DNA of 64,000 nt from an uncultured bacterium (GTDB taxonomy: Bacteria; Cyanobacteriota; Vampirovibrionia; Gastranaerophilales; Gastranaerophilaceae). This document shows positions 9,120-60,998 of the stretch, piece after piece (the first letter of the stretch is position 1; every line of letters starts with the position of its first letter). Where the stretch lies: assembly GCA_900319365.1 (NCBI GenBank), contig ONOE01000005.1:1-64000 (forward strand), read 5' to 3'. The notes beneath the pieces are model-generated. The model made no database searches. It had not been told where the DNA came from and saw only the letters and a list, made by a program, of their open reading frames with translations. The translations under genes were made by a program, and so were the position numbers.

Positions 9120-10199
<1,080 letters not shown>

Positions 10200-10248: not shown

Positions 10249-12072
10249 ATGAAACTAGAAATGACAACTGCAAAAAACTCGTTTAAATATGGATGGCTAT
10301 TATCTAGAATAATGCCATATATTGCACCATATTGGTTTAGAATTACACTCGGCTTTTTAGTAGCAATACCATTAGGTTTACTAGATGGCGTTACAGCTTT
10401 TGCACTAAAACCTTATATGGATTATGTAGTAGGTGGCAAAGCATTAGAATTTACATTCTTAAACTCTAATATAACAATCACAAGTATTCAGATGGCTTTT
10501 ATATTACCGTTTGGTGTAATCCTATTTGCTGCAGTTCAAGGTGTTTTAAGATACTTGAACGGTTATTTATCCAGTTGGACAAGTGCTCATATTACGAACG
10601 ATGTTAAATTTGATTTATTCAAAAGGTTAGTTCATATGCACCCACAATTCTTTGATGAGAATTCATCAGGGATTATAATTTCTCGTTATATGAGTGATCC
10701 GGGAGCAGCATCAGCAGGAATTGTAGATAATATTAAAACAATAACTACAAGTTTATTTGGAGCTTTAGGTTTAATTGCAGTTATGCTATACAGTTCTTGG
10801 AAACTTGCAATTATTGGTGTTCTTGTACTTTGCATTGCATTTCTACCAGTGGCTTTAATAAGAAAAAGAATTAAAGAGGCATCTAATAAAAGTATGGTTA
10901 TTGGCGGCAATATTACTACCAATATAAATGAAACATATAACGGCAATAAAGTAATGGCGGCATACGGTTTGCAAGATAAAATGTATGATTATTTTGAAAA
11001 ACAAACTTGGGATGGCTATAATGTCGGGATGTCATTGTATAAACGTTCGGGTTGGATGTCACCGTTGATGTATTTAATTGCATCTTGCGGTATCGCAACA
11101 GTTCTTGGTGTTGGTACATATTTAATTAATTCAGGTCAAATGACTGCCGGAAGTTTTGCATCTTTTGTAACATCGTTATTACTTTTATATAAACCCGTTA
11201 AAACTTTAGGAAATACTTTAACAGGTATTCAGGGAATCTTTGTTGCAATGGGCAGGGTATTTGAATTATTTGATTTAAAACCTGAAATTATAGATTCACC
11301 TAATGCAAGAGAATTGCAAGGGTTAAATGAATCAATTAAATTTGAAAACGTAAACTTTGAATATATTCCAAATCAACCTGTATTGAAAAATTTGAATCTT
11401 ACAGTTGCTAAAAATGAAACACTTGCAATAGTTGGCAATTCAGGTGGTGGAAAATCCACATTAGTAAATCTTATTCCGAGATTTTATGACATTAAATCAG
11501 GTGCAATAAAAATCGATGATGTAGATATTAGAGAATACACAATTGATTCTCTAAGACAAAATATTTCAATGGTATTTCAGGACAACTTCTTATATTCAGG
11601 GACAATTAAAGAGAATATAATGATGGGCAACTTCAATGCAACTGCTGAAGATTTGCAACAAGCAATATATTCTGCACACCTGCAAGATATGATTAAAGAA
11701 CTTCCACAAGGATTAGATACAATGCTTGGTGAAAGGGGATTAACTTTATCCGGTGGTCAAAGACAGAGAGTCGCAATTGCACGTGCAATGCTAAGAAATG
11801 CTCCTATTGTAATCTTAGACGAAGCAACATCAGCCCTTGATAACGAATCAGAAGCTATCGTTCAAAAAGCAATGGATAATTTGATGAAAGATAGAACAGT
11901 TTTCATTATCGCTCACAGATTATCCACAATTAAGAATGCCGACAGAATCGCTGTAATCAATGAGGGAGAACTTGTTGAATTAGGAACTCACGAAGAACTT
12001 ATGAATATTGAAAACGGTCAATATAAAGCTCTTTATGAAATGCAGTTTAAGAAACAAGAAATTATATCGTAA
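10249..12072 (+). CDS. ABC exporter, MsbA-like (permease-ATPase)
   Basis: A 607-aa half-transporter with a six-helix type I exporter domain (about residues 30-330) fused to an ATPase. Walker A GNSGGGKST is near 396, the LSGGQ signature near 500, Walker B IVILDEATSALD near 520 and the H-loop IIAHR near 550. It closely matches the MsbA/lipid-flippase group, which moves lipid-linked glycans or lipid A across the inner membrane. Following the glycan operon, it may export its lipid-linked product. AAAAGG precedes the ATG. It lies 66 bp after the AG repeat. Confidence 0.88.
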   Translation: MKLEMTTAKNSFKYGWLLSRIMPYIAPYWFRITLGFLVAIPLGLLDGVTAFALKPYMDYVVGGKALEFTFLNSNITITSIQMAFILPFGVILFAAVQGVLRYLNGYLSSWTSAHITNDVKFDLFKRLVHMHPQFFDENSSGIIISRYMSDPGAASAGIVDNIKTITTSLFGALGLIAVMLYSSWKLAIIGVLVLCIAFLPVALIRKRIKEASNKSMVIGGNITTNINETYNGNKVMAAYGLQDKMYDYFEKQTWDGYNVGMSLYKRSGWMSPLMYLIASCGIATVLGVGTYLINSGQMTAGSFASFVTSLLLLYKPVKTLGNTLTGIQGIFVAMGRVFELFDLKPEIIDSPNARELQGLNESIKFENVNFEYIPNQPVLKNLNLTVAKNETLAIVGNSGGGKSTLVNLIPRFYDIKSGAIKIDDVDIREYTIDSLRQNISMVFQDNFLYSGTIKENIMMGNFNATAEDLQQAIYSAHLQDMIKELPQGLDTMLGERGLTLSGGQRQRVAIARAMLRNAPIVILDEATSALDNESEAIVQKAMDNLMKDRTVFIIAHRLSTIKNADRIAVINEGELVELGTHEELMNIENGQYKALYEMQFKKQEIIS

Positions 12073-12090: not shown

Positions 12091-12636
12091 ATGTGTGTAA
12101 TTAATGAAAATTTAGATACAAGACATCGAGTCTTTATAAGTTATCATCATGAAAAGGATGAATACTACAAAAAAAAGTTTGAAGAGAATTTTGGCGATTT
12201 ATTTATAAATGAATCAGTACAAGATGGTGATTATAATCCAGATTTATCAGATGAATACATAAAACACTTAATTGCCAACAATAATATTTCTCTTTCAACA
12301 GTCGTAGTTGTTTTAATTGGTGCGGAAACAGAGAAAAGAAAACATATTGATTGGGAAATATATGCAGGTTTATCAGAAAGAAATAAATGCAGAGCAGGAT
12401 TAATCGGTGTTATATTACCTACTTTCAATAAAGATGAAAACAAAATTCCTGATAGGTTACAAGATAATATAGATACAAAATATGCTCGCTTGTACACATG
12501 GGAATATATAAATTCAATTAATTTAAATAATGAATATATGATTAAAGATTTAATTGAATTGGCTTATGAAAGAAAAAATGATTATGATATTCCGTCGAAC
12601 AATTCAAGATTACAAATGGAAAGAAATAGGGGGTAA
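12091..12636 (+). CDS. ThsB-like TIR protein (MTH538/DUF1863 type)
   Basis: A 181-aa stand-alone TIR-like protein. It starts RVFISYHHEKDEYYKKKF, the hallmark of MTH538/DUF1863 TIR-like domains used by the Thoeris sensor ThsB. It keeps a Glu in KHIDWEIYAG, the position of the catalytic Glu in NAD-cleaving TIRs. Known ThsB proteins respond to phage by making a cyclic ADP-ribose isomer. AAGGGGG precedes the ATG, 18 bp after the ABC exporter. It is the first gene of a three-gene TIR cluster. No SIR2-SLOG ThsA follows; a TIR-TIR-SLOG protein is there instead. Confidence 0.78.
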   Translation: MCVINENLDTRHRVFISYHHEKDEYYKKKFEENFGDLFINESVQDGDYNPDLSDEYIKHLIANNNISLSTVVVVLIGAETEKRKHIDWEIYAGLSERNKCRAGLIGVILPTFNKDENKIPDRLQDNIDTKYARLYTWEYINSINLNNEYMIKDLIELAYERKNDYDIPSNNSRLQMERNRG

Positions 12637-12730
12637 ATAAATGAGATACTTAAATGAATCAGATAAATCATCTACAATTTACAGAAAAAAAATAATTCTT
12701 TAAGAATATGATATAAAAAATTTTTCATAT

Positions 12731-13177
12731 GTGTCTACTAGACCGAATGTCTTTTTATCTCATTCAAGTAAGGATATTGATAAATTAGAACAAGTAATCG
12801 AATTTTTACAAGATTATAATGTAAATGTATATATAGATAAAAGAGATCCTAATTTACCACCTGTTACATCTTCAAAAACAGCTGAAATATTAAAAAATAA
12901 TATTAGGAAATGTGATAAATTTATAGTTTTGATAAGTGAAAATAGTAAAGATAGCCGTTGGATACCTTGGGAATTAGGAATTGCAGATTATGCAAAAACA
13001 ACAGAAAAAATAGCTCTATTACCATATGCAAAATATTATGCTTCTTCAACTTGGACAACTCAAGAATACTTAGGTCTATATAGACGAATACTTAATCTTG
13101 AAAATTCAGATGGTTGGGTTGTATATGATCATAAAGAAAAAAAATATTTAAAATTAAGTACATGGTTAAAGAATTAA
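12731..13177 (+). CDS. Small TIR-domain protein with disrupted 5' end
   Basis: A 148-aa TIR domain (TIR_2 type): VFLSHSSKD at the N-terminus and SRWIPWELGIAD with the expected catalytic Glu. GTG 12731 is the first possible start in the open frame but has no ribosome site. In the same frame, an ATG at 12641 with AGGGGG before it opens a gene that meets TAA at 12701, after 20 codons. The intended protein was probably ~178 aa and now carries a nonsense codon, unless translation reinitiates. It lies 10 bp upstream of the TIR-SLOG gene and probably acted with it. Confidence 0.7.
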   Translation: MSTRPNVFLSHSSKDIDKLEQVIEFLQDYNVNVYIDKRDPNLPPVTSSKTAEILKNNIRKCDKFIVLISENSKDSRWIPWELGIADYAKTTEKIALLPYAKYYASSTWTTQEYLGLYRRILNLENSDGWVVYDHKEKKYLKLSTWLKN

Positions 13178-13187
13178 GGGATTAACA

Positions 13188-15152
13188 ATGAAAGAATATA
13201 AGCAACCGATTTCTGTATATTTTGTATATCATCCAAATACAGCAAATATTGTGAAAGAAAGTGTAAAGTATTGTTATCAATATTTACAACGAGATTATAA
13301 ATATCCTTTTTCTCGATTTATAAATATTCCATTATTTTATAAAACGAGTTTAGATAATAATTCTGTTCCAACAAAATTAGAAACTTTTTCTCAAAAAACA
13401 ATTATATTTTTATTAATAGATGATTATATTATTGCAGATGATAATTGGTCTGATTATTATAATGATATCTTTGATAAAAATGATTGTGTGATTCCTATTG
13501 CTCTTAATAAAAATGCATTAAATTTTAAAAATTTATCTGAATATAATTTTATTAGAGCTTTCGATTTTGAAACAAAGTTTTATAAAGAAAACTTTTTATT
13601 AAACATAACAAATGAGATATATCGTTGGGTTTTAAATAAAATGAAATCCTGCGAGTTTGGTAAAGATAAATCTTTAAGAATATTTTTAAGCCATACAAAA
13701 GACGGTGTAGGTGAGAAGATAGCGGAGCAATTAGAAGATTTTATAAATAGGACAAATTTAAATAAATTTTTTGATGCTAAAGATATTGCAATTAATTATA
13801 GATTTAAAGAAGAAATTGAAAAATACGAAGAAACATCCGCAATATTAGCAATTAATACTGATTATTACTCTTCTAGATATTGGTGTCAAAAAAAAGTGCT
13901 TTATGCAAAAACTAATGAACGGCCAATTGTGGTATTAGATTGCTTAAATCACTATGAAGACAGACGTTTTCCGCATGCATCAAATATTAGTACATTACAT
14001 CTTAAATTTGAATATGCACATAAAATCCCTAAGTCTATTTTATATGAGATAATATTATCAATATTATTAGAAACTTTAAGGTTTAATTATGCACATGAAC
14101 TACTAAATAGTTATAAAAAAGCAAACTTTATTCCTCAAAATGCTATCATCTTTTCACGCCCTCCTGAGTTTAGCGATATAAAAAAGATGGTAAAATTTGA
14201 TAAAAAAACAATTTCACCACAAAAAGCGACTATATTTTATCCTGAACCTCAGTTATATGATATAGAAAAAGATTTTTTTGATTGTTTGGGGATTAAAATA
14301 AATACACCAATTAATTACAATATTAAATCCAATTTTAATGGGTTAAATATAGGAATTTCAATTTCAAATCCTGAAAAAGACGATTTAACTCAAATTGGTC
14401 ACTATGATACTCATCTTGAACAATTATCAAAAGATTTTGCTAGATTTCTAATCGCACATAATGCAAATTTAATATATGGTGGCGATCTACGAGAGGGAGG
14501 ATTTACAGAATTTATTTTTAATGAAGCTAAAATTTTACACGACAAAATAAAATACAAAGTTCCTCACATAATGAATTATCTTGCGTATCCTATTTATATA
14601 AATGCAAGTGAAACTGTACTTAAATGGAAAGCTGCAAATAAAAATATTGCTAAAATGATAGAAGTACCTCCGCCTGATGATATATCAGATATATTAAATA
14701 ATAATGATAAAATTATTTCAAACTTTTTTGAAAATAAATATTTAAATAGCAAGTGTTTTACTCAAATGCGTGACTTAATGATCCAAAATTGTGATGCAAG
14801 AATAGTTGCTGGGGGAAAATGTAAAGGCTATCAAGGAATAATGCCCGGAATATTAGAAGAAGTTTTAATTGCTATTGAAAAAGGAAAGCCATTGTATATT
14901 CTTGGAGGTTTTGGTGGTATAGCTTCTGAAATTTGTAATATATTGCAAAAAAATATAGTCCCAACAAAATTGACAAAAGAATGGCAAATTTTAAATAACG
15001 CAAACTATGCACAATTTCTAGATTATATAGAAAGTAAGAATGAGAAATCCCCAGATTATAGTGATGAGATGTTTTCCAAAATAAAAATCAGTAATTTAAG
15101 AAACGGATTAAGCAAAGAAGATAATATTAAGTTATTTAACTATCGTATGTAA
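13188..15152 (+). CDS. TIR-TIR-SLOG protein, Thoeris-like
   Basis: A 654-aa three-part protein. Residues 1-150 look like a degenerate TIR (SVYFVYHP start, alternating strands). Residues 160-260 are a clear TIR (LRIFLSHTKDG). Residues ~385-610 are a SLOG/LOG-like nucleotide-binding domain with YGGDLREGGFT, VAGGKCKGYQGIMPG and ILGGFGGIAS. In Thoeris, SLOG domains bind the ADP-ribose signal made by ThsB. The second TIR has SSRYWCQKKVLYAK, where active TIRs have WCxxE, so its catalytic Glu appears to be Lys. The protein may be a sensor or scaffold rather than an NADase. AAGGGA precedes the ATG. Confidence 0.75.
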   Translation: MKEYKQPISVYFVYHPNTANIVKESVKYCYQYLQRDYKYPFSRFINIPLFYKTSLDNNSVPTKLETFSQKTIIFLLIDDYIIADDNWSDYYNDIFDKNDCVIPIALNKNALNFKNLSEYNFIRAFDFETKFYKENFLLNITNEIYRWVLNKMKSCEFGKDKSLRIFLSHTKDGVGEKIAEQLEDFINRTNLNKFFDAKDIAINYRFKEEIEKYEETSAILAINTDYYSSRYWCQKKVLYAKTNERPIVVLDCLNHYEDRRFPHASNISTLHLKFEYAHKIPKSILYEIILSILLETLRFNYAHELLNSYKKANFIPQNAIIFSRPPEFSDIKKMVKFDKKTISPQKATIFYPEPQLYDIEKDFFDCLGIKINTPINYNIKSNFNGLNIGISISNPEKDDLTQIGHYDTHLEQLSKDFARFLIAHNANLIYGGDLREGGFTEFIFNEAKILHDKIKYKVPHIMNYLAYPIYINASETVLKWKAANKNIAKMIEVPPPDDISDILNNNDKIISNFFENKYLNSKCFTQMRDLMIQNCDARIVAGGKCKGYQGIMPGILEEVLIAIEKGKPLYILGGFGGIASEICNILQKNIVPTKLTKEWQILNNANYAQFLDYIESKNEKSPDYSDEMFSKIKISNLRNGLSKEDNIKLFNYRM

Positions 15153-15262
15153 GCTCCGCAACTAAAAGTTTAAATAAGGAATTATGTGAACTAAACCTAC
15201 AAAAAAGCGAAGACATAACATTTTGCGCTGGAGATATTGATACAAACCGGTACATCAATAAT

Positions 15263-16297
15263 TTGAATTTATTATCTTCTTTTAAAGGAAAAGCTATTAG
15301 TCTTGGTGGCGATGGGAAAGCTAATCAAATATATTTAGCAATGTGGGCAAATAAAAATACTTCTTCTAGGGAAAAAGAAGGTGTTACATTTTTTTGCATA
15401 GAAGAACCTGAAGCACACTTACATCCTCATAAACAAAGAGGTCTAGCTAAATATTTAACAAATAAATTCGATTCTCAAATAATCATTACGACACATTCAC
15501 CACAAATCGCCTGTGAATTTGATCCAAATTGTATGATTAAATTATATGCCACTTCAGAGGGAACTAAAGCGGCAAAAGATGGAGTTTCTAAATTAATAGA
15601 AGAATCTTTTTCAAATTTTGGCTATAGACTTAATATTATTCCGGCAGAAGCCTTTTTTGCTGATGTTGTATTTTTAGTAGAGGGTGTGTCAGAATGTTTA
15701 TTTTATAAAGCATTTTCCGCAATGAATGATGATTTTAATATAGATAAATATAACATAAGTATTATTTCCGTTGATGGCATTGGATTTAAACCATACATAG
15801 ATATTTTTTCAAAGCTTAATATTCCAGTAGTTCTAAGGACGGATAACGATATATTTCAAGTTCAAAATTCAGATGAATACAGATTGGCAGGAATTGAAAG
15901 ATTGTTAGATTTGTATAATTTTTTGCAAACAGACAAAACAAAACATGTTAATACAGTATTTGAAAGAAGCAAAGATAAATCATACTTGGAATCAGATACA
16001 ATTAAAGAAAAAATTAATAAACTTATGCAAAGCTTGAATACTTGGGGTTTTTACATAGCAGATACTGACTTCGAAACAGATATTTACAATAGTACTTTAT
16101 CTGAACAATTAAAGAAGCATTATAAAGAAGAAAATTCCGAAAAGTTAGTAAATAAAATGAAAAAACATAAGGGAATTAATATATATGATTTTCTTGAGGA
16201 AAACAGAGATATGTTAATAGATTTTAAGGACGAAACACTATTAGCTCCTTTGTACAGATGCAAAGAAATAGTTGAAAAAATGTATGGAGAAGAATAA
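15263..16297 (+). CDS. gajA: GajA-like OLD nuclease, 5'-truncated
   Basis: C-terminal part of an OLD-family ATPase-TOPRIM nuclease of the Gabija type. Visible are the ABC signature-like ISLGGDGKANQ, Walker B EEPEAHLHPHKQR near residue 50, H-loop TTHSPQ near 76, then TOPRIM motifs FLVEGVSE near 140 and LRTDND near 192. The Walker A/P-loop half is missing; GajA is normally near 580 aa. Coherent GajA-like protein continues upstream in frame to 15140, without any start codon, to a point inside the end of the SLOG gene. So the first ~220-250 codons were deleted. The TTG at 15263 is only the first nominal start. Confidence 0.75.
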   Translation: MNLLSSFKGKAISLGGDGKANQIYLAMWANKNTSSREKEGVTFFCIEEPEAHLHPHKQRGLAKYLTNKFDSQIIITTHSPQIACEFDPNCMIKLYATSEGTKAAKDGVSKLIEESFSNFGYRLNIIPAEAFFADVVFLVEGVSECLFYKAFSAMNDDFNIDKYNISIISVDGIGFKPYIDIFSKLNIPVVLRTDNDIFQVQNSDEYRLAGIERLLDLYNFLQTDKTKHVNTVFERSKDKSYLESDTIKEKINKLMQSLNTWGFYIADTDFETDIYNSTLSEQLKKHYKEENSEKLVNKMKKHKGINIYDFLEENRDMLIDFKDETLLAPLYRCKEIVEKMYGEE

Positions 16298-17905
16298 TTG
16301 GGGCCAACGGACGAACAACAAAAAATAATAGATTGTCCCGGGAATATTGTCGTTATTGCAAATCCTGGTAGTGGCAAAACTTATACCTTATCTATTAAAA
16401 TCAAAAAAATACTTGAATCATTATCAAGCAACAAAGGAATAATTGCTATTTCATACACTAATAAAGCTAGCAATGAGCTAAGACAACGTTCGCTATCCGG
16501 GGGTATCGATAAAAAACAATCGTTTTTTGGTACAATAGATAAATTTTTTATTTCGGAACTTATTTTTCCATTTTTACCTAGATTGTTCGGAACTTTCCCA
16601 GGAGAATTGAGCATTCAATCTTATAAAGAAATTTTGAAAGATAGGCCAGAAGAATATCAAATCGCATCAGAAATCGAAAAATTAAAAAATAAACCCAATG
16701 ATACACAAATTTCTTTTTTGGATAGCTATTATAAATCTGGAATTATATTTTTAGAATTAATAGGTACTCTAGGGTGCTATGTATATGAAAATGTAAAATC
16801 TTCAAGATTATATTTAAGGGCTAAATATGACTATATTATTATTGATGAATTTCAAGACTCTGGGTATTTTCAGTATGTTTTATTTTGTTATCTGGTTGAT
16901 TTAGGAATTACCGGTATAGCAGTAGGTGATGTTGATCAGGCAATTTTTGGATTTGCACAAAAAAGTTCTGAATATTTAATAGCTCTTGATAAACGAGAAG
17001 ATTTTAGCTCTTTACGAATTACAAAAAACCACAGATGCCATCCTAGTATTGTCAATTATTCTAAAAATTTTTTAAGTCCATCGGAATCTATTGCAGAAGA
17101 AATTAGAGTTTATCATATTAACATACAAGGGACTCAGGTTGATATTGCAAAATATATAGATACTCATATACAAAATATTAAAAAAACTTTTTCGATACTA
17201 AATAACAATGACATAGCTATTTTAGTTAGGGGCGATACAACAGGAAAACTAATTAACGAAAATATGACAACAACACACAAATATATAATAAGCACAGTCT
17301 TAGATGAATGTTCTGAGATATGGGCGACATTGTTTATCGAAATATTATTTTTTATTTTTGATACAAAAGCACTACTAACAGATTATATGGATAAATATTT
17401 TGCAGAAGAAGATAGTAATAGAAATAGGATTGTAGAATATCTCAAAAAACTCAAAAATATCGACAAAACAAAATTAATAGAAAATGTTGATACCTTTTTA
17501 AAAATTGCAGAAATAATTGCTCCTAATAATAAATCTTCCATTGCTATTGATCGTTTAAAAGCTATATTAAAAAACCCAATATCTTTATCATCGTACGAAC
17601 CAGTTGCAAACAATGAAATTCAGATCATGACAATACACAAATCTAAAGGTTTAGAATTTAAAATTGTAATTCATCTTGATTTATATGATTATGTAATTCC
17701 TTTTTATTCTTCAATACAAAATAACAGCTATAATGAAGATAATAATTTACATTATGTAGCAATTACAAGAGCAAAAGAAGCATGTATTTTTATTACTTCT
17801 TCAAAAAGATATAATGCTCAACAGCAGATAAAAGATGGGATTGTTTCAAGATTTTTAACAAGAGAGGATTTGGTAACCCTTCGTAAAGATGTATATTTAA
17901 CTTGA
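16298..17905 (+). CDS. gajB: GajB-like UvrD/PcrA-type helicase
   Basis: Superfamily 1A helicase-like protein, partner of GajA in Gabija defence. Motif I NPGSGKTYT is near residue 22, motif II IIIDEFQDS near 180, motif III VGDVDQAIFGF near 209, motif V IHKSKGLEF near 446 and motif VI VAITRAK near 488. At 535 aa it fits GajB and appears intact. It starts at TTG directly after the GajA stop, with GGAGAAG before it. GajB senses DNA ends or nucleotides and activates GajA nuclease. With GajA lacking its P-loop half, the pair is probably non-functional in the canonical way. Confidence 0.82.
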   Translation: MGPTDEQQKIIDCPGNIVVIANPGSGKTYTLSIKIKKILESLSSNKGIIAISYTNKASNELRQRSLSGGIDKKQSFFGTIDKFFISELIFPFLPRLFGTFPGELSIQSYKEILKDRPEEYQIASEIEKLKNKPNDTQISFLDSYYKSGIIFLELIGTLGCYVYENVKSSRLYLRAKYDYIIIDEFQDSGYFQYVLFCYLVDLGITGIAVGDVDQAIFGFAQKSSEYLIALDKREDFSSLRITKNHRCHPSIVNYSKNFLSPSESIAEEIRVYHINIQGTQVDIAKYIDTHIQNIKKTFSILNNNDIAILVRGDTTGKLINENMTTTHKYIISTVLDECSEIWATLFIEILFFIFDTKALLTDYMDKYFAEEDSNRNRIVEYLKKLKNIDKTKLIENVDTFLKIAEIIAPNNKSSIAIDRLKAILKNPISLSSYEPVANNEIQIMTIHKSKGLEFKIVIHLDLYDYVIPFYSSIQNNSYNEDNNLHYVAITRAKEACIFITSSKRYNAQQQIKDGIVSRFLTREDLVTLRKDVYLT

Positions 17906-18965: not shown

Positions 18966-19182
18966 ATTAACCAAAGAAACGTTAGATATTCCATATTCTG
19001 AATTCAGGATAAAGTTTGCAAAAGAGATTCAGGATGCGTTTGAAAGTTATCGAAAAACACAATTAAATAAATACTCTTGGAACTTCAAAGATGATAATTC
19101 TTTGGAGTTTAATTTTTATTTTGAACTCCATTGGAACTTTAATCATTTTGGAAATAGTAATTGGTATATTGAAAAGCTTTAA
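18949..19182 (+). CDS. Small hypothetical protein
   Basis: 77 aa from ATG 18949, chosen over the TTG at 18943 because AGAGGG is 8 nt upstream. It is aromatic-rich at the end (FNFYFELHWNFNHFGNSNWY) and not recognised. It overlaps the previous gene and meets mcrC tail to tail by 4 bp. Confidence 0.5.
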   Translation: MILKNKLTKETLDIPYSEFRIKFAKEIQDAFESYRKTQLNKYSWNFKDDNSLEFNFYFELHWNFNHFGNSNWYIEKL

Positions 19183-20429
19183 GCTACGTTTAAAATCCTT
19201 TTTATATCTTCTTTTATTTTTTCTAAATTTTCTTTTTTACCAATATAATCATATTGTAAATTTATTGTTTTAAAATCTATTTGATATATATCACTTTCGC
19301 TAGGATTGTCTATATTTAGATGAAAATCATTCTCCTGAGCCGAGGCATCCCACTTCGGGTATAAAAGAATTGCATGTTTTGCTTTATGTAGCAAACAATA
19401 CGTTGAAACTTGAAATACATCAGCATTAGAAAAATCATCAGAAGATACAAATTTTTTATATTTGGTATCTAAAACAATTTTTTCGCCATTAATTTTTTCT
19501 ATCATTATATCTACAAAGGTGTTTCTTTTTTTGTTTGTATCTCCAACTAATAACTTCCTTCCTCTTTGGGCTGTTAACTTACATCCCAATTCCGATTCAT
19601 TCTTTTTCATTATTTCAAAAACAAATTCTTCAAATAGTTTATTCATGTCCCAAATTAGAGTAATATTTTCAAATTTGTTTTTTGATAAATCTACACTTGT
19701 CTTTTCTACAAACATTTTTGCCAAATTAAATGGTTTCTTAAATAATTCTTGGTTACGAGATAACTTTATTTTTTCAGCTTTGAACCTATCAAAACGAACC
19801 AATTTGATATCCGCATAGTAATTCATTATAAATTTTAGAGTTTTTTTATTGTAACTGTCGTTTGAAATGTTGTATAAACAGGTCGAAACAAATAAAAACA
19901 ACTGATTCAAAATATTGTTTTCTGAAAATTCATCATATTCGCAATAAAATTTTGCCTGGTTTGAGCTGTTATACCTGATATTTTCAGTAAATTTTATTTT
20001 TCCTTTTAAATAGTTCAGGTTATCTTCTTCTCTAACATAACGTTTAGGGGTTAAACGCTTTAAGCATTCAAAAAGAGATTTCGCGTATTCTCTTATTAGT
20101 ATTTCAATAAATGGATTTTTGGCAGTTGATAATCTTGCTTCATTACTTGTTTTTATATCTAACTTTTTTGTGTAAGAAAGCATATAAATTAAATTTTTTA
20201 AAATATTTTCTTTGTCTCCATTATTACATATTAATTTTGGTAGAATTTGAAAGTGCGTATTTTTATACTTTATAACTCCTACCCACGAAGTTGTTTCTAT
20301 GCCACTAGGAGTAACTTTCAAAGCAGAATCTAAGTGTTGGCACTCCAAATAATGATGCAATCTACTTAAATCGCAATCTTTAATTTTAATATTTTTAGAA
20401 TACTCTTTAACAACAATCGGTTCTGCCAT
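19179..20429 (-). CDS. mcrC: McrC-family restriction subunit
   Basis: Endonuclease subunit of a McrBC-type modification-dependent restriction system. 416 aa. The N-terminal DNA-binding-like half carries GVIKYKNTHFQILPKL. The C-terminal PD-(D/E)XK nuclease core shows VDIMIEK near 307 and VLDTKYKKF near 322 (Asp, then D-x-K). It is 15 bp downstream of mcrB in the usual order. McrC binds the McrB ring and cuts DNA with methylated sites in the cytoplasm. Confidence 0.86.
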   Translation of the reverse strand: MAEPIVVKEYSKNIKIKDCDLSRLHHYLECQHLDSALKVTPSGIETTSWVGVIKYKNTHFQILPKLICNNGDKENILKNLIYMLSYTKKLDIKTSNEARLSTAKNPFIEILIREYAKSLFECLKRLTPKRYVREEDNLNYLKGKIKFTENIRYNSSNQAKFYCEYDEFSENNILNQLFLFVSTCLYNISNDSYNKKTLKFIMNYYADIKLVRFDRFKAEKIKLSRNQELFKKPFNLAKMFVEKTSVDLSKNKFENITLIWDMNKLFEEFVFEIMKKNESELGCKLTAQRGRKLLVGDTNKKRNTFVDIMIEKINGEKIVLDTKYKKFVSSDDFSNADVFQVSTYCLLHKAKHAILLYPKWDASAQENDFHLNIDNPSESDIYQIDFKTINLQYDYIGKKENLEKIKEDIKRILNVA

Positions 20430-20443
20430 TTGTTAATCCTTAA

Positions 20444-22762
20444 TTAAATATTTTTAAAAGCATTTTTTATCGCTTCTTCAAAATCAATATTTGCTTCTGA
20501 GACAAAATCATATGTTTCATCTTCATCGCAAGAATAACTATTTGCAAATTTTACGTTGTTTATTTTTTTAATAAATGACTTGCCTTCCGGTTGAAAATCT
20601 CCTAGCAGTGCACAAAGTTTTTCCCAGTCACCATAGAAATATTCATTTAATAGTGGCATTACGCAATCATACCAAACACGTTTAAAATCGGAATCATAAT
20701 CGGAACTGTTTTCTAATTTCATGAAATAACTATGACCAATTTGGTGATCTCTATCCAATAAAATAGAAATTCTCTCATTTAAAGTTGTGAATATTTTTCG
20801 TAATTCAATACCAAATACTTCTACATCAGGAACTAAATTAACATTTGGCATAATTTCCTTGAATATAAATCTACGTCTTAACGCGATATCAATAGAAGCA
20901 ATTGAACGATCGGATGTATTCATTGTACCTAAAATGTATAAGTTACTTGGAACGCCAAATTTTGATTTAGTGTAAGGCAAAGTTACCAATAACTGTTCTT
21001 CTTCAATTTTAGTATTTTCAAAATTTATATCGCCATTTGGGGTAACACGTTTATCCGTTTCAATCAATGTGATTAATTCTCCAAAAATCTTTGATATATT
21101 ACCTCGGTTTATTTCATCAATTATCAAAAGATATTTATTATTAGGATCAGAATTTGCTTTTTGACAAATTTCTTTGAAAATTCCTTTATTGTATTCATAC
21201 GATATTGTATTATATTCTTCATCGTCACTTATAACAGGTTTAATTCCTTCGACAAATTCTTCATAAGAGTATGATTGATGGAATGTAATAAATTTATAAA
21301 AATCTTCTTTTTCTCTTGTTTTATTTTTTGCGTCTAGTAATTCTAACTGTTCTGATAAATTTTCTTCAACAAATTTAATGCCTTCTTCAGTTAAATACCA
21401 ATCAGAATCTTCTGTTTTATCAAAAATAAACGGAGCCATTCTTCTACCATAATTAACAGTGCTAGAAGATGTTGCGGTATGAGTTTGAAGCTGTCCCCAA
21501 ATTATGGCTCTTAAGTTATTGTTATCTTTTGTTTGGGCGAAAGCTTTAATAAGTTTCTGGTGCTGCATATTAGCAACTTTATATTTGTTATTTTTGCCAT
21601 TTCTATACATTGATAATGCAACGGCCGAATACCAATTTAGTGATTTGACAACATCAGAAATTCTTTGATCTTCATTATCTGCTTTTAAACCTGGATTATC
21701 ACCTAAAATACTATCAATATATTCTTTTATACTATAAGTTTTACCTGTCCCTGGAGGCCCGTATAGAACTAAATTCCTGGCCGTATTTTTCATAGTATAA
21801 TCCTCCTGTATTAAAGATTCTTTTTTTTCTAATTCTATTTCATTTTTATCTTTTTTTGTATAATTAAGAACGAATTTATCACCCTGATTACCAAAGCGTT
21901 TTAGGCATTCTTGGACAAAAATGATTGTAGAAAAAATATTCCAACAATAGATAACAAACTGTTTATTATTGTCGTATTTATATTGCATATACTCTAATGT
22001 TTTTCGATGTTTTCTAAATTCTTCTACACTTGAATAAATCCCGCATATGGCATCACTATTCAAAGAATATCTACAAATAGGGAAATTTTCCTTATCTCCT
22101 AAAGACATGTTTGATATTTGTTTTTCAAAAATTTGAAAAGCAATACGTGGCATTGTTTGATTAGAAATTTTCTTTTCGCCTTTAAATAGATCACGCCTTA
22201 TAATATCACCATTGGCCTTTGTACAATATGTATCTATTGCCTTAAAATAATCCCCGTAACTTAAGTTATCCATAGTAAATCTTTCATCAGTAGATTCAAC
22301 ATAATCTGCAGTGATAGAAAGAACAAAGGTATCTTGATTTTTTAATTCATTTTTTTCTTTAAATTTTTCCACAAATTCCACCATATTAGGATCTATGTCT
22401 CCGATAATATCAATATATTGATCAGGTATAGCATACAAATTTTTATCGTCAAAAATAGTATCGTAGTCTGTTTTTGATTTTTCTGGTAGATTTGGATTTT
22501 TATTTAAACTAATATTATCGATTTCATATAATTTTTGTCTTTGAGAATATGTCGAAGTTCTAATATTTGTTATAATTTGAGCCTTATTTTTTGAAGTGTT
22601 ATGAAATGCTAAATATTGAGTTACATTATTTCTATCCTGAACAAGCATAAACCATACATTACAAGAATTGTACAAACTATCATCTTTTATCGTGTATAAT
22701 GTATTAGTTTTTGCATCTCGCATAGTCCACAATACACCAAATTTTTCTATATCCTCAATCAT
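20444..22762 (-). CDS. mcrB: McrB-like AAA+ GTPase
   Basis: A 772-aa motor subunit. The first ~320 residues are a variable recognition region (FGVLWTMRD onward). Then comes the McrB AAA+ domain: Walker A YGPPGTGKTYS near 335, Walker B LLIIDEINRGNISKIFGEL near 550 (the McrB DEINRG signature) and the sensor NTSDRSIASIDIALRRRF near 612. The N-terminal domain determines which modified bases are recognised, and here it is not a type I recognise. AAGGAGTG precedes the ATG. Operon with mcrC. Confidence 0.87.
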   Translation of the reverse strand: MIEDIEKFGVLWTMRDAKTNTLYTIKDDSLYNSCNVWFMLVQDRNNVTQYLAFHNTSKNKAQIITNIRTSTYSQRQKLYEIDNISLNKNPNLPEKSKTDYDTIFDDKNLYAIPDQYIDIIGDIDPNMVEFVEKFKEKNELKNQDTFVLSITADYVESTDERFTMDNLSYGDYFKAIDTYCTKANGDIIRRDLFKGEKKISNQTMPRIAFQIFEKQISNMSLGDKENFPICRYSLNSDAICGIYSSVEEFRKHRKTLEYMQYKYDNNKQFVIYCWNIFSTIIFVQECLKRFGNQGDKFVLNYTKKDKNEIELEKKESLIQEDYTMKNTARNLVLYGPPGTGKTYSIKEYIDSILGDNPGLKADNEDQRISDVVKSLNWYSAVALSMYRNGKNNKYKVANMQHQKLIKAFAQTKDNNNLRAIIWGQLQTHTATSSSTVNYGRRMAPFIFDKTEDSDWYLTEEGIKFVEENLSEQLELLDAKNKTREKEDFYKFITFHQSYSYEEFVEGIKPVISDDEEYNTISYEYNKGIFKEICQKANSDPNNKYLLIIDEINRGNISKIFGELITLIETDKRVTPNGDINFENTKIEEEQLLVTLPYTKSKFGVPSNLYILGTMNTSDRSIASIDIALRRRFIFKEIMPNVNLVPDVEVFGIELRKIFTTLNERISILLDRDHQIGHSYFMKLENSSDYDSDFKRVWYDCVMPLLNEYFYGDWEKLCALLGDFQPEGKSFIKKINNVKFANSYSCDEDETYDFVSEANIDFEEAIKNAFKNI

Positions 22763-22821
22763 ACTTCACTCCTTTTTCTTTTAGGGTATCACAAACATGG
22801 ATTTGAACATATTTTGAACGG

Positions 22822-23178
22822 TTATAAAACGGGGTTTGAATTAATTTGGCGATTTATCCATTCCATAATTACGGAAACAAGATATTCTTGTTCTGTTTGG
22901 GTTAGTTCTCTGTGTTGAGGAAATTTGTGCCATTGTTCAATGCAGCCGCGGCAGCAGGTAGCGGTTGCATGTTGAGCGATAAAAACAGGATGCCCTCGCA
23001 TTGGAGTTTGTTTACCATCATTTGCAGGTTCTGCCGGAGCAACTCTATCCCGAATAAAATCGCCGGCATGAGAACGAACTGTATCAAGTCCTTTGTCCTT
23101 GATATATTCAAGTTCTTTTGCCCGAAGTTTAAATCTGCTTCTGAATTTTGATTTTGCTAATCTGTCTAAAATATCCAT
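22822..23178 (-). CDS. DUF4186 family protein
   Basis: 118 aa, matching what I recall of DUF4186: FRSRFKL, HAGDFIRDRVAPAEPANDGK, GHPVFIAQHATATCCRGCIE and a C-terminal SVIMEWI helix. The paired Cys/His motif suggests a metal site; its function is unknown. It lies 2 bp after the macrodomain gene on the same strand, a common arrangement in accessory regions. Confidence 0.82.
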   Translation of the reverse strand: MDILDRLAKSKFRSRFKLRAKELEYIKDKGLDTVRSHAGDFIRDRVAPAEPANDGKQTPMRGHPVFIAQHATATCCRGCIEQWHKFPQHRELTQTEQEYLVSVIMEWINRQINSNPVL

Positions 23179-23180
23179 AG

Positions 23181-24047
23181 TTACTCTTTTGTAATTTCAT
23201 GCAATCTTTCTACCAGTTTAGTAATCTTGCCAGATTTAATTTTTTCAGCTAATAAGCCTTCACAGAATCTATCTTGTCTAATGTAATATGTTAATAAAGA
23301 CAGAATTTCCTCTCTTGTCATTATGTTTATATCCTTGTGTACCAAGTCATAGTCTTTTGTGTGTTGCATATAGTAGTAATCAATTAAATTTAGCTTATAA
23401 AATGCCTGTAACCAAGCTATATCATTCGCAGCAAATTTGATGTAAGGGAGTTGAGGAATTTCATCTTCCTTACGATTAGCAGTTCCTCCGCCCCATTCAT
23501 AATTATGTGGAAAAATAATTGGTAATTCTTGACATCTTTTATTTATATCAACCATTTCATTGTATACTTGAACAACTTTTTCATTAATATCAATAAAGAT
23601 TACTTTGTCCAAGCAATTATTTTTATCAACAAAATATCGAATTATATTAGTAGCAATTTCACAAGCTTCTTCTAAAGGGAAATGATAAACTCCGCAAGAA
23701 ATAGCAGGAAAAGCTATTGTTTTAATTCCGTTTTCTTTTGCTAAATTCAAAGATGTATTATAGCAGGATTTAAGGAGTTCTCTTTCGTTTTTATTGCCAC
23801 CTCTCCATACAGGGCCGACAGTGTGAATTACATAATTTGCCGGCAGATTATAGCCTTTTGTAATTTTTGACTGTCCTGTTTCACAACCGTTTAAAGTTCT
23901 GCATTCTTCCAAAAGTTCAGGCCCTGCGGCACGATGAATTGCACCATCAACTCCGCCGCCACCTAATAAACTTGTATTTGCGGCATTAACTATTGCATCA
24001 ACTTCTAGCTTTGTTATATCACCTTTTAAAACTTCAATTTGCGTCAT
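23181..24047 (-). CDS. Macrodomain protein (ADP-ribose hydrolase-like) with C-terminal extension
   Basis: Residues 1-170 are a macrodomain: GDITKLEVDAIVNAANTSL with the ADP-ribose loop GGGGVDGAIHRAAG, then PAISCGVYHFPL. It resembles YmdB/MacroD O-acetyl-ADP-ribose and ADP-ribosyl hydrolases. About 115 further residues form an extra helical region (YKLNLIDYYYMQHTKDYDLV) that I do not recognise. In an island with TIR proteins and a cyclase-fold protein it could process ADP-ribose signals, but the immediate partner is DUF4186, not a TIR. Upstream lies a gene remnant on the same strand. Confidence 0.83.
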   Translation of the reverse strand: MTQIEVLKGDITKLEVDAIVNAANTSLLGGGGVDGAIHRAAGPELLEECRTLNGCETGQSKITKGYNLPANYVIHTVGPVWRGGNKNERELLKSCYNTSLNLAKENGIKTIAFPAISCGVYHFPLEEACEIATNIIRYFVDKNNCLDKVIFIDINEKVVQVYNEMVDINKRCQELPIIFPHNYEWGGGTANRKEDEIPQLPYIKFAANDIAWLQAFYKLNLIDYYYMQHTKDYDLVHKDINIMTREEILSLLTYYIRQDRFCEGLLAEKIKSGKITKLVERLHEITKE

Positions 24048-24056
24048 ATTTTACCT

Positions 24057-56404: not shown

Positions 56405-57392
56405 TGTAATTCTAAAAAATGTTACCAAAATTTACGATAACGGCAACAAGGTTATTGACGATATCTCGCTTGATATAGAAGATAAAGAATTTGTCGTACT
56501 GGTCGGCTCGTCAGGCTGCGGAAAATCAACTCTTTTGAGAATGATTGCGGGGCTTGAAGATATAACGTCAGGCGAAATCTTTATCGGTGATAAAAAGGTT
56601 AATAATGTTCCGCCAAAAGACAGAGATATAGCCTTTGTTTTCCAAAGTTACGCTCTTTATCCGCACATGACGGTAAAAGAAAATATTTCATTCGGATTAA
56701 AGATGAGAAAAGTTCCTAAAGCCGAGATTGAAAAAAAAGTTCAAGAGGTTTCAAAAATCCTCAATCTTGACGAATATTTAGACCGAAAGCCCAAGCAATT
56801 GTCAGGCGGTCAAAGACAAAGAGTCGCTTTAGGGCGTGCAATTGTCAGAAATCCGAAAGTATTTTTGATGGACGAACCTTTGTCAAATCTTGATGCAAAA
56901 TTGAGAGTTCAAATGCGTTCGGAAATCAAAAAACTGCACAACAAACTCCAAACAACATTCATTTATGTAACCCATGACCAAACAGAAGCCTTGACAATGG
57001 GGGATAGAATCGTTGTATTAAATAACGGAAAAATTCAACAGGTGGGAACACCCGATGATATTTATAACAACCCGCAAAATACGTTTGTTGCAGGGTTCAT
57101 CGGTTCCCCGCAAATGAATTTTATAATGGGTAAAAATCTGGGGTTAGATGAAAATATTTTATACGGAATCCGTCCCGAAAAAATGACAAAGCCCGACGGC
57201 GATATAAAACTTACGGTAAACGTTGATATAACGGAAATGCTTGGAAGTGAAAAGATAGCCTATTTTGATATCGATAATAAAAGATGTTCGGCTATTTTAC
57301 CGTCTGAATATAACTTTGGCAAAACCCTTGAACTTTCAATAAAATCAGAAGATTTATACAAATTTAACCCTCAAACGGGACAAAGAATATAG
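56397..57392 (+). CDS. ABC importer ATPase, UgpC/MsmK type
   Basis: 331 aa. Walker [10 protein letters not shown] at 37-45, Q-loop [14 protein letters not shown] near 82, signature [14 protein letters not shown] near 135, Walker [17 protein letters not shown] near 155, H-loop VTHDQTEA near 190, then an MOP/TOBE C-terminal domain with YGIRPEKM. Energises uptake of sugars or glycerol-phosphate; the permeases and binding protein are not in this window. It is translationally coupled to the preceding kinase-like gene, an unusual partner. Confidence 0.88.
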
Positions 57393-57417
57393 GGAATTTT
57401 ATCTTAAAAATACAAAC

Positions 57418-58143
57418 TTATGACTGTCTTTTGTCGCCCGTACCCGATCTGTATCCGCAGAACGTATAAATAAACGGCAGCAATTTATCGATTTGAATTT
57501 TGTCCGCAAACGGGATTTTTGCAAGAACCATCATGGCAACAAGATCATCAAGGCTTGCAACCATATCAACAAGTTTCAATTTTCTTTCGGGCTTTTTGGC
57601 ATCTTTTGAATCTCTGAGTTTATTTGAAACCGCAAGAGCAATTTGCGAACCCGTATAAACACCGAGCGCAGAAACTCCGAGTTTTGTAACGTTATTATTT
57701 ATCAATTTTGATTTTGCTCTTTCACAAAGTTTAATCGTTGTATCAACAAGCAGCATCGGAGCAGATGTTAAAATCATCTGGAAAGTTCCCTCTTTCCATT
57801 TTTTCTTTATGTCTTCTTTTTCATCTCCAACGGAACTTAATAAAATACTTCCGACATTAGCCGCCGCAGCCATTGACAACATTCGCCCGACTTTATTAAT
57901 TTTTAATTTGAACGGATTTTTTGTATGCTGGGTTTTCATCAAATAACCCATTACGGCGCTGACACCTGTTGCAGAACCGATTGCAGCCAAGATTTTTTCT
58001 TTTTTGGCTTCACTTTTTTTCTGATCTTCATACAGAAATTTTTTAGACATGTCAACGTAACCGTAAGAAATGTCATTCTTTTTTACAAAATAGCCGTTAC
58101 GGGTATTTAGCGGGGTATTTAACTGTACTGATTGAACTTCCAT
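57418..58143 (-). CDS. Lineage-type membrane-associated protein, unknown
   Basis: 241 aa with three to four moderately hydrophobic helices (AAIGSATGVSAVMGYLM; MLSMAAAANVGSILLSS; KLGVSALGVYTGSQIAL; DDLVAMMVLAKIPFADKI). Not recognised. The ASATG-like Gly/Ala helices resemble those of the 62.8-64 kb proteins, hinting at one lineage-specific family style. Confidence 0.62.
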   Translation of the reverse strand: MEVQSVQLNTPLNTRNGYFVKKNDISYGYVDMSKKFLYEDQKKSEAKKEKILAAIGSATGVSAVMGYLMKTQHTKNPFKLKINKVGRMLSMAAAANVGSILLSSVGDEKEDIKKKWKEGTFQMILTSAPMLLVDTTIKLCERAKSKLINNNVTKLGVSALGVYTGSQIALAVSNKLRDSKDAKKPERKLKLVDMVASLDDLVAMMVLAKIPFADKIQIDKLLPFIYTFCGYRSGTGDKRQS

Positions 58144-58199
58144 TTTACATGTCCGAATTTTCAGAAGTTATTCTACAATCAAAAATAAAAAATTTCAAC

Positions 58200-60998
58200 T
58201 TATTTAATTTTATGCAAAGAAGAAATAAAATTGTTTTGAACAATATCACCGTCGACTTTGGTTAAAAATATCTGGCAATCTTTTTCATCAGCCGCAATCG
58301 GAGGAAGTTCTTTAATTTCGGCTTCATAATAATTTTGACTGTTTCTGCTGTTTAAAGGGATTCTGTTTGCAAGAGAATTAAGAGATAAACTTCTGAGGAA
58401 ACCGTAAGCACCTTTGCCTCGATTTGAAAATCTCGTATAAATTCTTAAAATGGCATCCTGATTGCCAAGATTATATCTGCCCGTAATAAATGTGCTCAAT
58501 TCGGGCGATACGGATTTTATAACCATTCCTCTTATTACATTTTTTTCAAGTTTCAGGCTGCCGTTTATTTGGTCAAATTTTCCTTCAGGAATATTTACCA
58601 AATCCGCAATAACAGACGGCGTAACCATTACGACGGGATTTCTGAAAAGAGCCGCAACTTTCATCGTATATTCAACCAGACCCATTTTGGCTATTACACC
58701 GTTTGCCATAATAAATTTTATTGTACCGTTAATCTTTAAACTTTCATCGGTATTTAATTCCAACAACCCGCTTGCTTTTCCGCTTACTTCACCGGGGAGA
58801 TTTACAAGTTCGGATGCTATGGTGTTAGAATTTACCCGGATTAGCGCAAGGGTTAAATTGTATAAATGTTTTTTCAAATCACATTTAACTTTTGCCTCTG
58901 CCTCGCCTTCTGCTATTTTAAATCTGTTTGAATTAAGGGTGAGCAAACTGTTTTTATCTAATGCCATATTGCCTATTACGTTCGAAAAATCTATCTTTTT
59001 ATAATTTCCTTTGAGTATTTTTAAAGTACATTTCTGAACAATCAAATTAGCAAGATCAAATGTTTGAGTGTTGCTGTTTTCATCGGTATCATTTTCTACG
59101 AATTTTGAAACCGTTTCTTCAACACTGTCAGATGCATAATCACTAACCGTCTGACTGTTAAATGCCTCAAGATATTTTTCGACATTCACATCGTCAAGCG
59201 TAAGATTTGCATCACGAACAATTATGGGGAAAACTATCCCGTTTTTGATTTTTGCATTAACATCAAATTTTGAACGGCGATAATACCCCGATGCAATAAT
59301 ATTCATATTATCCCTGTCGGTTTTAAATTCTCCCGATTTCAAATAAAGCCTTTGGCTCGGAATATGCAGCTCTTTTGCCTTAAAATCACCTTTTAATACG
59401 GGCACTTTACCTTTAGGGCTGATATAATTCATATACCCCATAAATTGCCCGCCTTTAAATATTCGCTGTTTAGCAAGCATATTTATAAAACCGCTCGGCA
59501 TAGGCTTTGTAAGAGTTAAACCAAAATCTCTTACTACCTGTTTGCCGCCCGATAAATCTATATGACCGTTCATACTCAAAATCGGAGTTCTGTCATCTTT
59601 TTTCATTTTCTTTCTGATACTTGGCGGAGGTGCAAGATGATAGTCCAAAGATTTTATTGTAAGCATATTATTTTCAAGATGCATCTTTGCTACCAAAACC
59701 CTTAGTGATGCATTATTAATAAATGATTCTTCCCCGTCAAATAAAAATCCGTTACCTTTTTCAAATTTGTAGAGCCAAACCAAATCAAGCTTGCCCGATT
59801 TTGATTTCAGCATAATCCTTGTATCAGCTTTGCCCTTGATTTTTATGGGATAAGAAACCATTTTTGATAAATAATTTTGAGCAAAATCATTTGTAACAAC
59901 TGCATTACCGACAATATCGGTATCCGCCGTTTTTAAATAATCGTTAACCCTCCCTTCAAAATCGATACCGTTGCGGGATTTACCCTCATAACAGCCTTTA
60001 AATTTGCTCAATTTGATATTTTTATTATCAAATGAAACATTACCCTGATTTAGAGTTACGGGCAAATTCTTTAAAGGTTTAAGATCGAACGCCAGATTAT
60101 TCAATTTAACTTTGCCGTTCATTGCACCCGTTTTGACATTTATATCAAAATTAAAATTCCCTTTCAGGTTGTCAAAATACGTAAGATAATCACTTATGTT
60201 ATTTGCAACAACCTGAGTGTTTAAAATATCAAGCGCATCTTGGAGTTTAAAATTATCTGATTTCACATTAAAATCATACTTTTTAGAATCTATGCTTCCG
60301 TTTAATATAACGCTTGCCTTATCAACTTTTATTTTAGAATTTTTTATTACAAGTTTTTCTTTATTTTCAATAATTGTATTTTTGCCTGTTTCAACGGTTG
60401 AAATATTTAATTTATGATTTTGGCGCATAAGTACGGCTTTTAAAGCGTAGCTTAAATATTTCGTATCGGGATTGTCGGAAATCAGCAGATTTTTAACATC
60501 AACTTTTACGCTATTGTCCTTATCTATTTTATAAAAAGCTTTTAAAGCGTTGATATTTACCTGAGATTTAAAAATATCAACTTTAAAACCGTTAGGATTT
60601 TCGTTTTTATTTTTAAACGGCGGCAAATCCAAAATTCCGCTTATATTTGCGTAAACATCATCAACGTTAATTTTATTTAAAACGATTTTCTTATCAAAAA
60701 TTCCCGCAATAGAAATCGTACCGTCAAGATTTTTTATATTTAACAAAGGTTTTTTCTTATCAGATAGAGCAAACTTTTTGAATTTCAAATCAATCTTAGG
60801 GGCTAAATAAGTTTTCAGGTAAGGCTGTTCGATTTTTACATCACACGAAAGAATTTTTGACGTCATATCTTCAATTTTGGAAATGACCTTGGGGTTTTGA
60901 ATTGCCTGCGGCAAAATATGCAGATATCCGTAAATACCGAGTGCGAATATCAAAATAACCGTAACAGCAAAACCTATGATAAATTTTAGCGCTCTCAT
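58200..60998 (-). CDS. AsmA/YhdP-like envelope protein
   Basis: 932 aa. One N-terminal membrane helix (FIIGFAVTVILIFALGIYGY) and then a long repetitive beta structure. The start is the AsmA domain (IEDMTSKILSCDVKIEQPYL, PKIDLKFKKFAL); the end matches the AsmA-like C-terminal region (FDQINGSLKLEKNVIRGMVIKS). Proteins of this type bridge the inner and outer membranes and move phospholipids. Its presence argues for a two-membrane cell. Transcribed alone. Confidence 0.82.
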   Translation of the reverse strand: MRALKFIIGFAVTVILIFALGIYGYLHILPQAIQNPKVISKIEDMTSKILSCDVKIEQPYLKTYLAPKIDLKFKKFALSDKKKPLLNIKNLDGTISIAGIFDKKIVLNKINVDDVYANISGILDLPPFKNKNENPNGFKVDIFKSQVNINALKAFYKIDKDNSVKVDVKNLLISDNPDTKYLSYALKAVLMRQNHKLNISTVETGKNTIIENKEKLVIKNSKIKVDKASVILNGSIDSKKYDFNVKSDNFKLQDALDILNTQVVANNISDYLTYFDNLKGNFNFDINVKTGAMNGKVKLNNLAFDLKPLKNLPVTLNQGNVSFDNKNIKLSKFKGCYEGKSRNGIDFEGRVNDYLKTADTDIVGNAVVTNDFAQNYLSKMVSYPIKIKGKADTRIMLKSKSGKLDLVWLYKFEKGNGFLFDGEESFINNASLRVLVAKMHLENNMLTIKSLDYHLAPPPSIRKKMKKDDRTPILSMNGHIDLSGGKQVVRDFGLTLTKPMPSGFINMLAKQRIFKGGQFMGYMNYISPKGKVPVLKGDFKAKELHIPSQRLYLKSGEFKTDRDNMNIIASGYYRRSKFDVNAKIKNGIVFPIIVRDANLTLDDVNVEKYLEAFNSQTVSDYASDSVEETVSKFVENDTDENSNTQTFDLANLIVQKCTLKILKGNYKKIDFSNVIGNMALDKNSLLTLNSNRFKIAEGEAEAKVKCDLKKHLYNLTLALIRVNSNTIASELVNLPGEVSGKASGLLELNTDESLKINGTIKFIMANGVIAKMGLVEYTMKVAALFRNPVVMVTPSVIADLVNIPEGKFDQINGSLKLEKNVIRGMVIKSVSPELSTFITGRYNLGNQDAILRIYTRFSNRGKGAYGFLRSLSLNSLANRIPLNSRNSQNYYEAEIKELPPIAADEKDCQIFLTKVDGDIVQNNFISSLHKIK

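Follow-up and report, generated by a model that had tools for sequence, protein, structure and literature searches.

The three TIR genes located between positions 12,091 and 15,152 of the window, i.e. the whole stretch of 64,000 nucleotides analyzed here, are likely to be the decayed copy of a Thoeris-type operon that is widespread in bacteria, in which a TIR-SLOG protein, a putative NADase, would take the position of ThsA; in this copy the cascade is broken.

Gene content and domain structure of the window locus

The genes and domains of the locus and of the adjoining region are as follows.

10249..12072, + strand: extra copy of an MsbA-like ABC transporter gene, ending 18 bases upstream of P1
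12091..12636, + strand: P1, ThsB-like TIR protein of 181 aa (PF08937)
12641..13177, + strand: P2, second ThsB-type TIR gene (ATG 12641, TAA 12701-12703 at codon 21, then open)
13188..15152, + strand: P3, TIR-like/TIR/SLOG protein, open frame of 654 codons
13188..13640, + strand: P3 N-terminal TIR-like domain (residues ~1-151; AlphaFold model)
13671..14099, + strand: P3 TIR domain (residues ~162-304; TIR_2), with E236K at codon AAA 13893-13895
14334..15137, + strand: P3 SLOG domain (LD_cluster2, PF18163), last ~22-25 residues gone
15137..15140, + strand: P3/GajA junction, from which the P3 frame runs 4 more codons to TAA 15150-15152
15140..16297, + strand: GajA remnant of 385 codons (PADLOC GajA PDLC00066), without the ATPase N-terminal part and without Walker A
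16298..17905, + strand: GajB, UvrD-like helicase, apparently full length (PADLOC PDLC00123)
19179-20429, - strand: McrC, McrBC-type gene
20444-22765, - strand: AAA_5, McrBC-type gene
23181-24050, - strand: macro-domain/DUF6508 protein

The original prediction described a ThsB-like TIR gene, a small TIR gene and a TIR-TIR-SLOG gene in an operon devoid of SIR2. Pfam and PADLOC matches indicated that the three genes are real and stand in that order, and no SIR2 gene was found in the operon, nor was a SIR2_2 domain detected in a search of the whole genome. The operon also lacks a transmembrane-macro (TM-macro) ThsA, the effector of type II Thoeris; the genome has one elsewhere, on contig C34. The McrBC-type genes and the macro-domain/DUF6508 protein (19179-24050, - strand) make up the rest of a defense island. 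At the other side of the locus, about 24 consecutive GA dinucleotides (10136-10183) occupy the 3' end of the acyltransferase gene (PF01757) that lies just upstream of msbA; slippage in this repeat would shift the C-terminal frame of the acyltransferase, so that this surface polysaccharide gene may be phase-variable. An Rfam search of the window yielded zero matches, and scans for consensus promoters and terminators scored the real sequence no better than its shuffles.

P1 was assigned to the ThsB_TIR family (PF08937, E 1.6e-18, 67.4 bits against a cut-off of 21.2), is preceded by a Shine-Dalgarno sequence (aagggggtatgaaATG), and carries the catalytic Glu89 within IDWEI, a position occupied by Glu in 20 of the 21 aligned sequences. 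Since its 2 departures from the conserved sites of that alignment are an ordinary number, P1 looks intact, and it is predicted to be the signal-producing sensor. The same change that is described below for P3 was observed independently in a ThsB-like TIR of a Saprospiraceae genome (L022:9173-9955), where Lys replaces the catalytic Glu (DWKI for DWEI).

The open part of P2 (12731-13177) matched TIR_2 (E 1.3e-12), its best PADLOC model was ThsB PDLC00436 (7e-55, 183 bits), and its catalytic Glu is present in PWELG. Thus, the retention of Glu that had been claimed for both small TIR proteins was borne out, as was the ThsB type claimed for the first of them, and P1 and P2 each provide the ThsB-type TIR gene that Thoeris systems have in common. 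What had been overlooked is a nonsense codon. A strong ribosome-binding site (aGGGGGtaaataaATG) precedes ATG 12641, and the frame that starts there is the same as that of P2, meets an in-frame TAA at 12701 (codon 21), and remains open afterwards through the TIR domain to 13177. GTG 12731 was rejected as the true start because no ribosome-binding site was found there, the natural start being ATG 12641. When P2 was translated through the TAA codon, the alignment with PDLC00436 began at position 26 instead of 36, and an intact P2 homologue from Agrobacterium arsenijevicii spans positions 1-182 of the 183 of this model and has the N-terminal extension.

The structure model of the whole P3 protein (pLDDT 81, pTM 0.83) was analyzed domain by domain. 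TIR_2 matched residues 165-250, and the model of the TIR domain (162-300) was closest to the SPARTA and SARM1 TIRs (Z ~10.9, rmsd ~3 over 114-124 residues); when the sequences of the PDB were searched, P3 as a single query gave no match and the profile retrieved TIR domains only. The C-terminal domain (residues 383-648) is a SLOG domain of the LD_cluster2 family (PF18163, E 7.4e-67), with a STALD match of 23.6 bits (E 3.9e-5) that lies just below the 24-bit cut-off. Its model (386-654) matched ThsA structures at Z 11.2-12.6, the best being EcThsA (Z 12.6, rmsd 3.1 over 168 residues), and the BcThsA SLOG with 3'cADPR gave Z 11.6 (rmsd 3.3 over 167).

The N-terminal domain of P3 (residues 1-151), modeled alone with AlphaFold (pLDDT 85.5), retrieved TIR domains at the top of the structure list (RPS4/RRS1 TIR, Z 11.7, rmsd 3.1 over 130 residues), followed by many TIRs at Z 9-11 together with other Rossmann-like folds at Z 9-10. 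No sequence family detected this domain, which is TIR-like by its fold; hence the TIR-TIR-SLOG architecture of the original prediction is right as to fold, and its first TIR finds no counterpart among the sequence families. In all 12 aligned members, i.e. P3 and 11 homologues, this domain keeps a conserved Trp and has no Glu at the catalytic place, which suggests that the naturally dead TIR of the family is the first, N-terminal one.

The TIR-SLOG family and its genomic neighborhoods

Whereas a single-protein search of genome contigs with P3 gave zero matches, an alignment-based profile search of genomes detected 41 loci, to which 11 plasmid records were added. The homologues come from Cyanobacteria, Bacillota, Bacteroidota, Myxococcota, Planctomycetota, Pseudomonadota and other phyla, and the TIR-SLOG Thoeris-type family was defined here from them by a TIR-like domain, a TIR domain with a catalytic Glu and a complete LD_cluster2 SLOG domain, fused or adjacent. 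The TIR and SLOG parts are fused in 20 loci and are encoded by adjacent genes, or otherwise not in one frame, in 31. The window locus contains the three domains in one frame.

An additional ThsB-like or TIR_2 gene was present within 4 kb in 39 of the 51 homologous loci, and none was found within that distance in the remaining 12, in some of them because the contig ends. The gene order of the window, with a ThsB-type TIR, a P2-type TIR, a TIR-TIR protein and a SLOG protein, was observed in A. arsenijevicii (L053). Among 79 neighboring proteins, ThsB_TIR (30) and TIR_2 (24) were by far the commonest families, every other family listed having at most 3 matches with the exception of the general TIR model (7), and neither a SIR2 nor a ThsA model appeared among the families listed (25 of 34 and 25 of 48). 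This abundance of TIR neighbors, together with the absence of SIR2 and ThsA from the families listed, suggested that the TIR-SLOG protein occupies the slot that ThsA has in other Thoeris operons.

In the genome that contains the window, these families account for only four TIR genes, of which three belong to this locus. A search of 383 genomes of the bacterial family with the SLOG model matched two others. One of them (L060:2303-3754) has an interrupted SLOG gene, whose N-terminal part is Mu-transposase-like (a weak match) and in frame with the SLOG C-terminal part; the SLOG gene of the other is cut off by the end of its contig. Another broken copy was observed in Rhizobium bangladeshense (L013, 2485-4980), where an IS3 transposase gene interrupts the TIR part of the TIR-SLOG. 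The TIR-SLOG of one genome of the phylum resembles that of Gloeothece, so that the host may belong to a non-photosynthetic lineage related to cyanobacteria.

Lesions of the window copy

At the WCxxE position of the TIR adjoining the SLOG domain, P3 does read WCQKK (K236), as had been noticed in the original prediction, which called for an alignment of this domain with its homologues. In that alignment, position 236 is occupied by Glu in 48 of the 48 homologues that have the TIR region, spread over many phyla, and Lys is found in the window copy alone; Lys236 as a subfamily trait was thus rejected. Because Glu is kept throughout, the catalytic effector of the family is very probably the second TIR, which adjoins the SLOG. 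In its TIR half, P3 has 5 departures at sites that are at least 90% conserved (D173G, G203N, E236K, Y263H and P355Q), compared with at most 2 in any of the 48 homologues, and over the fused protein P3 has 12 departures versus 0-10 in the others. Judged from this alignment, K236 is a local mutation among other damage, which reflects relaxed constraint and no specialized active site. The proposal that a dead TIR beside the SLOG serves another output, perhaps a filament, thus finds no support as the biology of the system; the puzzle is resolved as local damage, and a false lead is spared.

The original prediction also missed the truncation of P3 and the headless GajA gene that follows it. The C terminus of P3 is about 22-25 residues short, since the homologues keep a tail after the ENxxLF motif, and the tail absent from P3 is present in L060, the relative from the same bacterial family. 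The homology of P3 stops at 15137 and that of GajA begins at 15140, with no gap. Mapped on GajA homologues from plasmids, since those of the genus are too divergent to place the junction, the remnant starts at residue 198 of a 584-residue Legionella homologue (43% identity to its residues 198-579) and matches PDLC00066 from position 239. Accordingly, it lacks the first ~197 residues and with them Walker A (residue 29 in the homologues). GajB, on the other hand, aligned through residues 2-532 with positions 4-539 of the 540 of PDLC00123 (E 1.6e-176), so that the TOPRIM part of GajA and GajB are present without the head of GajA that a Gabija system requires. The missing N-terminal part of GajA was not found elsewhere in the genome, and the alternative that the TIR module had inserted into gajA, leaving the rest of that gene at another site, was consequently rejected. 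That the P3 homology ends where a headless GajA begins points to a deletion that fused two neighboring defense loci, and it looks like one and the same deletion cut the SLOG end of P3 and beheaded gajA.

That these lesions are assembly or sequencing artifacts, including a misjoin at 15137-15140, and that the real genome has an intact system, is quite unlikely. The data come from a single assembly of 37 contigs with 1% contamination, and a search of viral contigs, which contain two relatives only, gave no match to the 30-mer across the junction; nevertheless, several independent lesions of different kinds fall within 3 kb, the Gly203-to-Asn change at a conserved site needs more than one base change, and misjoins normally occur at repeats, none of which was seen at 15137-15140. 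Decay of a real copy is the preferred reading, since Lys236 is accompanied by the stop in P2, by the shortened C terminus of P3 and by further changes at conserved positions, all of which suggests that the window copy is decaying and probably non-functional. Given that the P3 frame is open over 654 codons and that P1 is apparently intact, the decay would be recent, or else some function remains. The same two features, together with the filaments known to be formed by TIR assemblies (PMC11204291, EcThsB1), could be accommodated by a functional, non-enzymatic locus in which P3 with its K236, gated by the signal, forms a scaffold or a filament together with the small TIRs. We consider this quite unlikely, because Glu is present in all 48 homologues, the SLOG is truncated, P2 carries a nonsense codon, and departures at conserved sites are in excess, with nothing that points to selection for Lys.

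Proposed cascade and comparison with known systems

In intact members of the family, at least one ThsB-like TIR would sense the phage and produce an ADP-ribose-type signal from NAD+, which would bind to the C-terminal SLOG of the TIR-TIR-SLOG protein, encoded by one gene or by two adjacent ones. The signal-bound SLOG would then switch on the second TIR, a putative NADase acting through the WCxxE glutamate, and the infected cell would be stopped. The N-terminal TIR-like domain would be non-catalytic and probably aids assembly or auto-inhibition. No experiments on any LD_cluster2 TIR-SLOG protein were found in the searchable literature, and the effector role is one that we infer. In the window copy the cascade would fail at several points, with the nonsense codon in P2, an effector TIR without its catalytic Glu, a SLOG without its C-terminal end and, next to it, the beheaded gajA. 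In a family that ranges from cyanobacteria to myxobacteria and Bacteroidota, TIR enzymes would thus stand at both ends of the cascade, as signal makers and as SLOG-gated effector, and intact relatives offer a way to test this relay from TIR to TIR.

The genome also carries a canonical type II Thoeris on contig C34 (~57385-60580, L061:5386-8583, - strand), with ThsA_Macro (E 7e-45) and ThsB. It directly follows an MsbA-like ABC transporter gene with a 4-base overlap, just as the TIR operon of the window lies 18 bases after msbA, and the MsbA-like gene ahead of both TIR systems may mark a shared insertion site. The existence of this pair would allow P1, along with P2 if the latter were translated from GTG 12731, to signal to the type II ThsA (TM-macro). 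Such cross-talk is very unlikely, since the families of P1 and P2 travel with TIR-SLOG, no ThsA is among the neighbor families listed, and type II systems signal with His-ADPR, which is distinct from the cADPR isomers bound by the ThsA SLOG (PMC12847820). It is more improbable still that the tail-less K236 TIR-SLOG has been kept as a non-catalytic sponge or brake for the signal beside an intact ThsB, modulating the type II Thoeris of the genome.

The description of the locus as Thoeris-like, with TIRs and a SLOG and without SIR2, is in agreement with the small TIRs belonging to ThsB families and with the SLOG matching best the SLOG structures of ThsA. As in type I Thoeris (ThsB TIR and ThsA SIR2-SLOG), ThsB-family TIR genes adjoin an effector with a C-terminal SLOG; unlike it, the effector domain is a TIR and not SIR2, the SLOG belongs to Pfam LD_cluster2 and is only marginally STALD, and TIR-SLOG has an extra N-terminal TIR-like domain and is often split in two genes. 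With type II Thoeris (ThsB and TM-macro ThsA) the locus shares TIR sensors of the ThsB type, frequently two or more in one operon, and P2 matches a PADLOC ThsB model, but no transmembrane-macro effector is encoded in the window operon.

In TIR-STING and TIR-SAVED (CBASS), a second-messenger-binding domain switches on the TIR NADase of the same protein. The proposed TIR-SLOG would likewise be a TIR NADase gated by a signal-binding domain in the same protein, but its sensor would be a SLOG and its signal maker another TIR, so that NAD+ would be used in both steps of the cascade. TIR effectors gated by a ligand have been discussed (PMC11204291), and SLOG proteins have been predicted to be sensors tied to TIR and Sir2 domains (PMC7272460, PMC9503650). 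Thoeris types I, II and IV use SIR2, TM-macro and caspase-like effectors (PMC12847820), and a type VI with 2'cADPR as its signal is mentioned (PMC13232231). The region 15140-17905 resembles Gabija (GajA-GajB) in containing both genes, and differs in that GajA lacks its ATPase half and the copy is broken. A systematic survey of TIR-based signaling systems by Yirmiya et al. in 2025 reportedly describes further Thoeris types, including type VI (2'cADPR), and it may well include TIR-SLOG operons. We regard the window locus as a new but degenerate example of a type of system that is already known or has been predicted.
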